A DNA stretch of 40,732 bases, from positions 1-40,732 of the forward strand of contig JABUFC010000032.1 in the NCBI GenBank assembly GCA_013314715.1. The letters are read 5' to 3'. Origin of the DNA: Bacteroidales bacterium. GTDB taxonomy: Bacteria; Bacteroidota; Bacteroidia; Bacteroidales; GWA2-32-17. The translations under genes were made by a program, and so were the position numbers. The notes beneath the pieces are model-generated. The model worked only from the letters and a program-made list of their open reading frames with translations. It searched no databases and was not told the origin of the DNA. Positions 2,302 through 40,732 of this stretch are shown piece after piece. Each line of letters begins with the position of its first letter. The stretch's first letter is position 1.

Positions 2302-5300
2302 ATGAAAAGAATATTTACTTTAATAGGTTTAATAATAGCGAGTAATCTTATCTTTTCGCAAAGTACAACTAATTATACATTTAGCTCGCTATCAGATGGT
2401 TCATTAACCGATATGTCGTCGGGAACGACACAACTTATTGGTCCTAATACCGATGGTTTAAACACCGGTATTTTTTCAAATACGAACCCAATCGGTTTTA
2501 CTTTTTATTTTATGTCCACTGCTTATGACCAATTTGTTGTTACCGAAGACGGAGTAATGCGTTTAGGCACATCATTATCGGCTATAAGTCGCACTCCCGA
2601 ACTGAATGTTAATAAGCCACGACTTGTTGCTTTCTCTTGCGATATGGCTACAGGATCTAACGGTAAAGTTCATTATAAAGTAGAAGGCACAGCCCCCAAT
2701 CGTGTTTGTATTGTGGAATGGAAAAACTGCTATGGTACCTTTCCTGCTTCCATGCCGGTTTTAGGTCAATTAACATTTCAAATTCGTTTGTACGAAACCA
2801 CAGGAATTATTGAATATGTCTATGGATATATGAACATGCAACGAAGAAGAGATAATAGTGATCTTGGAGCTATAGGGATAGGCAATTCGAATGCTAATAA
2901 TGGAGTTTTATATAAAACAACATCATTTTCTGACAATTCCATAGGAACAACCTTACCTGTTTATCTAATATGTCAATCCAAAATAACTACAACCGGTGAA
3001 GTAGCCGGCTTATCCTCAACAACCGATGGAGCTCGAAGGGTATATCGTTTTGTTCCTCCTGTTGCACCTGCAGCACCATCAGGGTTATATTTTACAGGCG
3101 TTAGTCAAACCAGTGTAACCTTAAATTGGACCGATAATGCTAATAATGAAACCCATTACCATGTTTATAGAAGCGATGATGGTGGATTAACTTATGAATT
3201 AGTGGCTGTTCTTCCAGCCAATTCTACCACCTCAGGACCTATAAACGGACTTCCAGATAGAACCTATTACTGGAAAGTATATGCTGTAAACGAAGGTGCA
3301 CGAAGTGATGCACTTGAAGGAGTTTGTTCTACTTTACCTGCAGGAACCATTCATTCTACAGTTACTGGAGGTTTATGGAGCCAAACAACTACTTGGGAAG
3401 AAGGTGTTTTACCGGGACCCAATGATGATGTCATTATCAAAGATGGAGCAACGGTAACTATTGATATCACTACTGCCGTTTGCAACAATTTAACCATAGG
3501 CGAAGGGAATTCGGGCAGATTAACTTTTATCGGTGGGAACACCAATGCCACTCTTACATGTGATGGCGACATTTGGGTAAAGCCCAATGCCACTTTTGAT
3601 GTAGATGGTTCAGCTACCGGAGGTACAAGAAAACTTATCGTTGGTAATCGTTATTATTCACAAGGTAATCTTACTGTGGACGGTATTTTTGACATGAACT
3701 GTAGCTCAACTGCAATAGCTGATGTTTATTTTAAAGGAAGTGTAAATGGCATTGTTTCCGGTAATGGACCAACTTGCGACTTCTATTCCATTTATGTTGA
3801 CAAAAGCAATAATTACAATAAATATATTGATATTCAACGCATTATCACTATTAGTTCACCCACAACAAATGGAAGCAGGTTAAATTTAACGAATGGATTA
3901 TTCAAACTTTCGAGCGCCTCAACCCTATCACCTTATTATGGCAATAATACCATAGGAAGCACAACAGCAGGTTTATGGCTAAATAATCCAAATGCCATTA
4001 TACAATGTGTAGGAGCTGGTACTACAACAGGAGCCGGCAATGCTACTATTGATGGTCTTTTACAAATATCTGCCGGACATTTTATTTATGGAAGTGGCGA
4101 TAATACTCTTTCTGTAACAAATAATGGTACTATTCAATTAGATGGTGATAATGCTAAAATAACCTTTTATGGGAAAGCTGATTTTGCAGCCAATGCCCAC
4201 TTAACGATTACAGCCGGTGATTTCAGATTAGATCCTCAAGCAGGGAATAATTTAGCAACAGGACATGTTTGTAATTTTAATACTACATCATATGTTATAT
4301 TCACGGGTGGTTATATTACTTTTATTGATCCTAAAAAATATACTACTTCAAGCGATTTTTATATTCCTTCATCAGGAGAGCAAAATAAAATACTAGTGGG
4401 AGGCACCATCCGATTAGGCGATGGTAGTAGTTCTGCCAATGGTTCTACCAGCGGTTTTATGATTACCATACCAACAACCTATGGATTTCCACTGGGTAAT
4501 ATAGAAATCAATAATCCTACTGGTACTGATAGATTTGTACGATTTACTCGATCTTCAGGAACTAATCCTATTATTGTTAATGACATTAACATTATTGCCG
4601 GCACATGGAATTTAAAAGGCATTTCTTTCAATGTTGGCGGTAACATAGTAAATAATGGAACCATTGACGTTTCAACTGCAAGCTCAACTATTAATATGAC
4701 AGGTTTAGCCTTACAAACTATAAGTGGTAGCGGTACACTTTCAGCAACCAATAATTTAGTATTCAGCATCAACAATTCGAACGGCATAACATTAAATATG
4801 CCCTTATCGGTTTTAAAATTAACGTTAACCAATGGAATCATTAATACCACAAGCACCAATATTTTAAAAGTATTATCTACAGCCGTAACTGACTTATCAG
4901 GCGGTTCATCAAGTTCGTATATCAACGGACCTTTAGAACGTAATATTACAACAGTAGCTAATACCTACAAATTTCCTATTGGCAAATCGGGTTATACATA
5001 TTTTGAACTAAAAAATCCGACGACTTCAGGTACTGTAACAATTAGAGCTGAAGTATTTGATCAAGATTGCGGTGGAAGCATCACTTCTCCTGCCGGTTAT
5101 GAAATTAACACTAACCGCTATTGGAATGTTCAAGTTCAATCAGGAACTTTTACTAATGGAATAGCAATTATATATGAAACGAACCCTACAACTAATCTTA
5201 TCATTGCAAAATCGAATACCCTTTCGGGAGTTTATGATGGGACTATTCACGCTTCGCAAAGTGGCACCTCGCTTACCACTAGTACTATCACAAGTTTAGG

Positions 5301-39499: not shown

Positions 39500-39543
39500 C
39501 AGTTTTGAGTTACTATCAATCATCAATTGGTGTAAATACAAGA

Positions 39544-39661
39544 CCTTTGCAAAACTTTTTTTTGTCATTACGATTCGTCTCATGTAATTGAGAAGAAGCA
39601 ATATAAATGATTGAACTTTTTATAGCAATAAACGAGTACGTTTTTTTTAGTTTTGCAAAGG
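39544..39661. mobile_element. 118-bp MITE-like element with perfect 13-bp terminal inverted repeats
   Basis: CCTTTGCAAAACT (39544-39556) is the exact reverse complement of AGTTTTGCAAAGG (39649-39661). The 92-nt interior is AT-rich, has T-runs just inside both arms, and encodes nothing. This is the form of a miniature transposable element. No target-site duplication is obvious (left flank ACAAGA, right flank GCTCAA). It lies 45 nt after the MBOAT stop and 16 nt before the CRISPR-like array. A long-armed terminator is a less likely reading because of the 92-nt gap. Confidence 0.55.
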
Positions 39662-39677
39662 GCTCAAAGTTGTCGAA

Positions 39678-39812
39678 GTCTTAATCCTTGTTTTTCCTAT
39701 TGTAGCAAAAGGATTCGTCCGAATGCCAACTACAAAAAACACTACTCAGGAATTTAGTTCGCTTTGGCTCCTAAATTCCTATTCGGAACGAAAATGGACC
39801 ATGTACTACGAC
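39678..39812 (-). repeat. Split repeat L1 (98-nt insert)
   Basis: The unit starts with the normal repeat beginning (GTCTTAATCCTTGTTTT) and ends with AATGGACCATGTACTACGAC. Between them lie 98 nt holding nested inverted repeats: AGGAATTTAG (39748-39757) with CTAAATTCCT (39771-39780), perfect, 13-nt loop; and outside it TTCGTCCGAAT (39714-39724) with ATTCGGAACGAA (39781-39792), imperfect. L2 is the same unit with three base changes. Confidence 0.75.
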
Positions 39813-39850
39813 ACCCACATTTCCAAATTTCCTAATTTCCACATTACCAT
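39813..39850. repeat. Recurrent 38-nt sequence S, copy 1
   Basis: It occupies a spacer position but recurs four times here. After its first three bases it is built of 8-nt units: CACATTTC, CAAATTTC, CTAATTTC, CACATTAC. Copy 1 differs from copy 3 only at its last base. Confidence 0.75.
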
Positions 39851-39923
39851 GTCTTAATCCTTGCGAAGTTCTTCCAAACAACGTTAGTTGTTGGTAGAAT
39901 TTTAATGGACAATGCACGACGAC
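39851..39923 (-). repeat. Split repeat M1 (36-nt palindromic insert)
   Basis: The first 13 nt (GTCTTAATCCTTG) and last 24 nt of the repeat flank a 36-nt insert (39864-39899). The insert contains CCAAACAAC (39874-39882) and GTTGTTGG (39887-39894), an 8-bp stem with one bulged A and a GTTA loop. The repeat end is the variant GCACGACGAC, shared with M3. Confidence 0.75.
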
Positions 39924-39961
39924 ACCCACATTTTCAAATTTCCTAATTTCCACATTACCAC
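39924..39961. repeat. Recurrent 38-nt sequence S, copy 2
   Basis: It is identical to copy 3 except for one C-to-T change in the first TTTCC. It lies between M1 and M2. Confidence 0.75.
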
Positions 39962-40034
39962 GTCTTAATCCTTGCGAAGTTCTTCCAAACAACGCTAGTT
40001 GTTGGTAAAATTTTAATGGACAATGTACTACGAC
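39962..40034 (-). repeat. Split repeat M2 (36-nt palindromic insert)
   Basis: It has the same insert position and length as M1, with two base changes (GCTA in the hairpin loop and TAAAA near the insert end). The repeat end is the consensus GTACTACGAC. It borders the clean core of the array. Confidence 0.75.
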
Positions 40035-40449
40035 AGTTTATGAAAAAGTTAATAGTAATAAGCAATCATGAGTCTTAATCCTTGTTTTAATGGACAATGT
40101 ACTACGACACCATGTATTAAACGGCTATAAAAAAGCCGTAAGAGGTCTTAATCCTTGTTTTAATGGACAATGTACTACGACTTCTCTTCATTGAGAATGG
40201 TTCAATTATTGCAATGACGTCTTAATCCTTGTTTTAATGGACAATGTACTACGACAAAACAAAAAATTAATCGTGATTTCAAATCATGATCCGTCTTAAT
40301 CCTTGTTTTAATGGACAATGTACTACGACATGTATGCAAAGATATTTGTACAATCGAATGTATAAAAAAGTCTTAATCCTTGTTTTAATGGACAATGTAC
40401 TACGACATAATAATTATGTCGATTTGCCTAATCTCGAAACAATAAAAGG

Positions 40450-40584
40450 GTCTTAATCCTTGTTTTTCCTATTGTAGCAAAAGGATTCGTCCGAATGCCA
40501 ACTACAAAAATCACTGCTCAGGAATTTAGTTTGCTTTGGCTCCTAAATTCCTATTCGGAACGAAAATGGACCATGTACTACGAC
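40450..40584 (-). repeat. Split repeat L2 (98-nt insert)
   Basis: It has the same 135-nt structure as L1, with three substitutions. The perfect 10-bp inverted repeat is at 40520-40529 and 40543-40552; two of the changes fall outside this stem and one falls in its loop. Confidence 0.75.
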
Positions 40585-40622
40585 ACCCACATTTCCAAAT
40601 TTCCTAATTTCCACATTACCAC
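40585..40622. repeat. Recurrent 38-nt sequence S, copy 3
   Basis: This copy follows L2 as copy 1 follows L1, and precedes M3 as copy 1 precedes M1. Confidence 0.75.
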
Positions 40623-40695
40623 GTCTTAATCCTTGCGAAGTTCTTCCAAACAACGTTAGTTGTTGGTAGAATTTTAATGGACTATGCACGACGAC
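40623..40695 (-). repeat. Split repeat M3 (36-nt palindromic insert)
   Basis: The insert is identical to that of M1. The repeat end has the same GCACGACGAC variant plus one extra change (GGACTATG instead of GGACAATG). Confidence 0.75.
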
Positions 40696-40732
40696 ACCCA
40701 CATTTCCAAATTTCCTAATTTCCACATTACCA
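40696..40732. repeat. Recurrent sequence S, copy 4, cut by the window end
   Basis: The first 37 bases match copy 3 exactly, then the window stops. Confidence 0.75.

Follow-up and report, generated by a model that had tools for sequence, protein, structure and literature searches.

By analogy, the closest precedent for the repeats described here would be the long crRNA repeats of type VI-B (Cas13b) CRISPR systems, in which, according to the available text of the report, the 5' and 3' parts of the ordinary repeat are parted by an intervening repeated sequence, and the long and short forms stem from distinct parts of the CRISPR locus (PMC8209922). On repeat copying there are data from type I-E, I-B and II-A arrays, where a ruler, mostly located 8-10 bp short of the far end of the repeat, is reported to set the second integration site, and where insertions placed before this ruler move the integration site along and also gave spurious integration sites, although the part of that work available to us concerns changes of 1-3 nt in these three subtypes and not type III (PMC6895254). 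Insertions and deletions in leader-distal repeats have likewise been described, as far as the accessible text goes (PMC4869251), and primase-polymerases of type B (CAPP_B) are reported, in the available part of a survey, to occur mostly in type III operons of Bacteroidetes (PMC8211822).

The window analysed here is the whole stretch of 40,732 nt that forms contig C32 of a Bacteroidales genome of 3.0 Mb in 100 contigs. Its last 1,055 bases (39678-40732) are a CRISPR array, and the window ends where it does because the contig ends inside this array. A first-pass annotation, made from the letters alone, had described CRISPR repeats split by inserts at one position per insert type, and this was confirmed: of ten repeats, five are normal (37 nt), three carry a 36-nt insert and two a 98-nt insert, so that repeats of 37, 73 and 135 nt coexist, the longest almost four times the normal length. 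The normal repeats (at 40072, 40145, 40219, 40293 and 40370) are five identical 37-mers. The 36-nt insert always follows GTCTTAATCCTTG (copies at 39851, 39962 and 40623), while the 98-nt insert follows GTCTTAATCCTTGTTTT, 4 nt beyond the 36-nt site (copies at 39678 and 40450). Both sites had been placed near the loop of the weak TTGT/ACAA stem, which holds for the 98-nt site, lying in the loop, but not quite for the 36-nt site, which cuts the ACAA arm itself (A|CAA). Towards the leader the split leaves 20 or 24 nt of the repeat intact, and towards the spacer 17 or 13 nt. When the insert is excised from one copy of each type, both on contig C46, the 37-nt repeat is restored letter for letter, without target duplication; in the window, the copy at 39962 has no change in its repeat once the insert is removed, and the other four have one to three point changes each.

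Read from the distal end, the array opens with a repeat split by the 98-nt insert (39678-39812, minus strand; insert 39695-39792), with one change in its halves. The 38-nt spacer that follows, c (39813-39850), is the first of several near-identical copies that join split units to each other, whereas the spacers beside normal repeats are unique. A repeat split by the 36-nt insert (39851-39923, minus strand; insert 39864-39899; two changes in the halves) is followed by the second copy of c (39924-39961), which differs from the first in one base and in the last base, and then by another 36-split repeat (39962-40034, minus strand; insert 39975-40010) with perfect halves and a unique spacer next to it, u1 (40035-40071; translation FMKKLIVISNH). 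The five normal repeats with their four unique spacers of 36-40 nt occupy 40072-40406 (minus strand), and a 43-nt unique spacer, u6 (40407-40449), stands ahead of a second split block. This block consists of a 98-split repeat (40450-40584, minus strand; insert 40467-40564; one change in the halves), a third copy of c (40585-40622), a 36-split repeat (40623-40695, minus strand; insert 40636-40671) with three changes in its halves, lying within a stretch of 110 nt that matches the start of C46, and a last copy of c cut by the contig end (40696-40732). Spacer c resembles a low-complexity intergenic motif, ACATTTCCAAATTTCC, which is present in this genome and in some other genomes of the order. 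Just beyond the distal array end, at 39541-39664, lies an inverted repeat, AGACCTTTGCAAAACT / AGTTTTGCAAAGGGCT, and a similar motif, TTGCAAAG, precedes the array on contig C13.

The first-pass annotation had pointed to the sequence beyond the window as the place to look for a leader and cas genes, and both were found in the same genome. The 37-nt repeat recurs at three further contig ends (C20, C46 and C13). Contig C20 carries, in order, two 36-split units, 35 normal repeats, a presumed leader, cas2, a type B primase-polymerase (CAPP_B) gene, cas1, cas6b and csm1-5. Csm1, Csm2, Csm3, Csm4 and Csm5 are each matched over the NCBIfam cut-off in genes beside the array with the same repeat, the adaptation genes cas1 and cas2 by TIGR00287 and TIGR01573, and a Cas6-type nuclease by the Pfam families Cas6b_N and Cas6b_C, all over cut-off; the repeat thus belongs to a type III-A CRISPR system (csm1-5, cas6b, cas1, cas2), and at the C20 locus the effectors beside the array are csm genes, not cas13b. 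A gene with a Fic domain lies between csm1 and csm2 (L009; 8857-9603), and downstream of csm5 there are an AAA_14/DUF4143 gene and a gene for a Card1-like CARF nuclease (L009; 13546-15845). On C46, two 36-split units are followed by a unique spacer (u7), a 98-split repeat, a second unique spacer (u8) and another 98-split repeat that directly adjoins the leader, which is identical to that of C20 over 137 nt. The end of C13 holds four 98-split units joined by c, of which the last is incomplete because the contig stops there. Each of the four contigs with an array thus breaks inside it.

The last 110 nt of C32 are exactly the first 110 nt of C46, and it is on this overlap of contig ends that the junction between the two rests; an overlap of C32 or C13 with C20 was looked for and not found. 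The window probably holds the leader-distal portion of a second array (array 2) that has its leader on C46; the order of repeat types along array 2 is then 98, 36, 36, five normal, 98, 36, 36, 98, 98, leader. Given a leader on the right, the array is expected to be transcribed on the minus strand, and split repeats retain 13 or 17 nt at the 3' end of the crRNA-sense repeat. The 13 spacer-side nucleotides, earlier proposed as a possible crRNA handle, are indeed intact in the split repeats.

Every full insert copy found in the genome lies in a CRISPR repeat on C32, C13, C46 or C20. A search at E values up to 10 returned no full copy of the 36- or 98-nt insert outside CRISPR repeats, the matches outside the arrays being short and partial. 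The repeats themselves differ in how well they are kept. Normal repeats on C32, C20 and C46 are perfect in 40 of 40 cases, and the halves of split repeats are perfect in 5/5 cases where the neighbour towards the leader is a unique spacer or the leader itself, versus 1/8 where it is c, counting complete, distinct copies (Fisher p = 0.0047), or 1/9 if a probable duplicate is counted (p = 0.0030), the 13 units being related by descent, which makes these p-values only indicative. The duplicate in question is the first split unit of C46, a likely copy of that at 40623, which was left out of one version of the test, and the incomplete last unit of C13 was left out of both. The c-joined units look like a decaying, amplified zone. 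Among the eight copies of the 98-nt insert, a C at insert position 45 is common to the two C46 copies and absent from the other six, and three sites distinguish the two C46 copies, a pattern that copying of one from the other, with later divergence, would produce.

Palindromy, which the first-pass annotation had ascribed to the inserts in general, is supported for three of the four inserts known from this genome and its relatives. Compared with dinucleotide shuffles, the inserts alone fold with z values of -3.6 (36 nt), -2.5 (98 nt) and -4.3 (a 67-nt insert of genome G003), and the 24-nt insert of genome G194 has no fold signal on its own (z +1.0). Whole split repeats fold more weakly against shuffles (z -1.0, -1.6 and -3.2 for the 36-, 98- and 67-nt forms), so the two window types hardly exceed chance once the repeat halves are included.

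A repeat of this type was found in 28 of 393 genomes of the order, and among the fetched arrays of these carriers, which are not every array of every genome, true splits occur in three: the genome studied here, G003 (a sister species of the same genus) and G194 (another family). G003 has its 67-nt insert at the 98-nt site and G194 its 24-nt insert at the 36-nt site, and neither insert has a full copy outside CRISPR-type repeats within its own genome. In one split repeat of G003, which is followed by a unique spacer, the first bases of the repeat are missing. G002 has, on a 3.2-kb contig, two units almost identical to those of G003, although the arrays proper to G002 use another repeat. The 98-nt insert is found whole in no other of the 393 genomes, with at most two candidate stretches scored per genome. 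A 25-nt part of it (window 39721-39745) matches at 24/25 positions in G004 (L017; 1501-1525), where the stretch is presumably part of feoB; the E value of 1e-4 applies to one genome, whereas 393 were searched, and the match may be due to chance.

A gap pattern devised for further splits matched in 40/393 genomes of the order, but about 18 genomes were also matched by the reversed pattern used as a control. Of the places listed, which are the first ones in each genome, only those in the present genome and G194 read as true splits of an array repeat; the G167 matches include a 214-nt element, and the remaining ones are either normal repeats with TGGA in a spacer or hits presumed to be chance. 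G003 was missed by this pattern, its 67-nt insert falling outside the gap range, and since detection needed a near-intact first 13 nt, the conservation of insert position is partly a matter of ascertainment. In viral contigs the same gap idea picked out 21 stretches, all taken as chance since none had more than one 5' half, and an exact repeat scan of these contigs found nothing. GTCTTAATCCTTGCGAAG, with one mismatch allowed, occurs in 2/395 genomes of the phylum, this genome among them, and a Cas1 scan of genome contigs returned two loci, at which no split repeat was seen.

Two further relatives show other irregularities. In G001 (L122, contig C49, 312-407), a palindrome precedes the only repeat seen in the array: AATCCTTGTT, a short duplication of the repeat, occurs twice and flanks the CACTGAGCTTGTCGAAGTG palindrome, and two other places in G001 have 25-29-nt sequences related to this palindrome. 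A 15-mer, CACTGAGCTTGTCGA, has at least 28 copies listed in the genome studied here. In G167 (L084, contig C41), a 213-nt sequence flanks a truncated distal repeat (2344-2556), and the same sequence, at 214 nt, occurs twice more inside the array (4063-4276 and 4595-4808), each time followed by a 20-nt duplicate of the repeat core, so that either the distal array end was duplicated internally or a mobile element is involved. Of 31 array rows scanned (40 loci minus nine with fewer than two 5' halves), ten have a leader-distal repeat that stops short near (A)ATCCTTG. In the ten rows (L083, L084, L085, L086, L089, L091, L093, L094, L121 and L129), the truncation looks like a regular loss of the last few bases of the crRNA-sense repeat.

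When translated, the spacers resemble each other in one orientation, the plus orientation: 10 of 903 pairs among 43 spacers score 30-53, versus 25 for the best pair with one member reversed. Spacer u1, which adjoins a 36-split repeat, resembles at the protein level the spacer at 40256 between normal repeats (FMKKLIVISNH and NKKLIVISNHD; score 44), and a second such pair joins a spacer of array 1 with the window spacer at 40182. Matches in one orientation support real, transcript-directed spacers and are consistent with crRNAs antisense to target transcripts, and at least one spacer beside a split repeat, u1, looks genuine on these translated matches. Many spacers match a small recurrent set of protein segments in variant form, LSVRRNGRLI, EEILNAPEFQ, FVDNGSIVAM and KKLIVISNH, again in one orientation (in L009, the spacers after 336, 558, 851, 926, 1366, 1442, 1515 and 1885; in the window, those at 40182 and 40256). 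Two scans of viral contigs with degenerate patterns yielded no target for u7 or u8.

The account we favour, at roughly even confidence, is that the inserts arose once each and spread by recombination and by repeat copying at spacer uptake, among CRISPR repeats only. Inserts would arise rarely, in single repeats, and most probably towards the leader-distal end, a zone in which decay is common, as seen in the distal truncations above and, in the accessible text, in reported distal indels (PMC4869251). Along one route, tandem and unequal recombination would amplify units of a split repeat plus spacer c and place blocks of them inside the array; recombination may act within and between arrays, and in array 2 it would have brought inserts up to the leader. 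Along the other, the adaptation machinery, Cas1-Cas2, would copy a split repeat once it is leader-adjacent, as on C46. The insert sites may be tolerated because they spare a putative integration ruler and the Cas6 handle, with 20 or 24 nt of repeat untouched towards the leader and 17 or 13 nt towards the spacer: with inserts 13 or 17 nt from the far end, a ruler of the I-E, I-B or II-A kind, if this system has one, would stay intact, and the whole split repeat could be copied. The order of repeats in array 2 does not follow from simple leader-proximal copying, so that recombination or precise insert loss is also needed, in which case u7 and u8 may themselves have been moved in; and the G003 split repeat that lacks its first bases in front of a unique spacer shows that clean halves are not universal. 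The recurrence of the 213/214-nt sequence in G167 may offer a parallel to distal blocks moving inward. A more specific version, in which the integrase takes a leader-proximal 135-bp hairpin repeat as its template and duplicates it whole with each spacer, the insert perhaps extruded as a cruciform so that the effective length is still about 37 bp, and in which an inherited mixture of normal and composite repeats would give rise to different crRNAs, seems to us doubtful.

Spread by recombination and copying has to be weighed against several other readings. Split repeats might be functional composite repeats under selection, as in type VI-B, with the hairpin altering crRNA processing, stability or spacer-specific expression. 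The same anatomy is on record there, in the available text (PMC8209922); next to a unique spacer or the leader the repeat halves are kept perfect, whereas the inserts vary; other lineages have other inserts at the same positions; and three inserts fold better than their shuffles. Set against this are the G194 insert without a fold of its own, insert sequences that vary by lineage, the rarity of the trait (3/28 carriers of the repeat type, among fetched arrays) and the decay of many split units, and we consider selection of this kind unlikely. A CRISPR-derived array whose split units serve another purpose, as the first-pass annotation had put forward, is a possible reading as well. The same annotation had suggested a mobile family targeting CRISPR repeats, and a palindromic element of the REP or MITE kind that repeatedly enters repeats site-specifically would account for mostly palindromic inserts at fixed positions, for the G001 palindrome with its flanking duplication and its relatives elsewhere, and for the G167 element with its adjoining 20-nt duplicate of the repeat core. 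It fares poorly in the genome itself, where full copies outside CRISPR repeats are lacking (as they are in G003 and G194), target-site duplication is absent at the inserts, the empty site being exactly a normal repeat, and no transposase of the Y1/RAYT type is found: PF01797 (Y1_Tnp) has no match at E <= 0.001, versus matches in 5/14 control genomes. The 98-nt insert, moreover, recurs elsewhere in the 393 genomes solely as the 25-nt stretch in G004, at up to two candidates scored per genome. We hold such an element to be improbable, and IS200/REP transposition in particular was rejected for want of Y1_Tnp and of dispersed copies in this genome. An error model based on the CAPP primase-polymerase was also rejected: NF040562, which matches in 12 of 31 genomes examined (10 over cut-off), is absent from the split-bearing G003, G002 and G194, and also from G001 and G167.

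Neutral decay, in which the adaptation machinery copies nothing, could have built a leader-distal satellite by slippage and by recombination with intergenic repeats, and recombination would then have supplied u7 and u8. The c-units stand in tandem and most of them are mutated, spacer c is similar to an intergenic motif, and distal repeats are truncated in 10/31 rows, in line with known distal indels (PMC4869251, in the text available). Decay alone, however, leaves unexplained both the clean 98-split repeat beside the leader and the unique spacer between two closely related 98-split repeats, and we give it little credit as the whole explanation. That the split units are an assembly artefact or chimera is hardly credible. 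Breakage of all four array contigs inside the array would fit it, but the copies bear distinct point changes and the same architecture, with other inserts, is present in the separately assembled G003, G002 and G194; that the sister species G003 and G194, from another family, have different inserts (67 and 24 nt) at these two sites makes an artefact unlikely.

If split repeats are indeed copied at spacer uptake, the machinery that writes CRISPR memory may tolerate repeats almost four times the normal length, and natural arrays with repeats of 37, 73 and 135 nt, one of the longest lying beside the leader, would make repeat-length tolerance directly testable. Split repeats are also a possible route to long-repeat crRNAs, and a candidate reason why such arrays may break short-read assemblies, as in four of four array contigs here.

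In its gene content the system resembles other type III-A (Csm) systems with CAPP_B of Bacteroidota, having csm1-5, cas6b, cas1, cas2 and a type B primase-polymerase beside the array, and it differs from them in its interrupted repeats. A literature search, whose coverage left out most subscription journals, found no report of interrupted CRISPR repeats in type III. Degenerate and truncated distal repeats are shared with leader-distal (trailer) decay, but here split repeats also occur in mid-array and by the leader, the one at the leader with perfect halves. Like REP and MITE elements, the inserts are short and mostly hairpin-forming, yet in their own genome they lack dispersed full copies, target duplication and a Y1 transposase. 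Split repeats of this kind are rare among the arrays fetched; split ('long') repeats have already been described for type VI-B crRNAs, in the available text of that report (PMC8209922); the anatomy of a normal repeat parted into its 5' and 3' portions is common to both, and the present case differs in belonging to type III-A with Cas6b and in having inserts that differ between related lineages.
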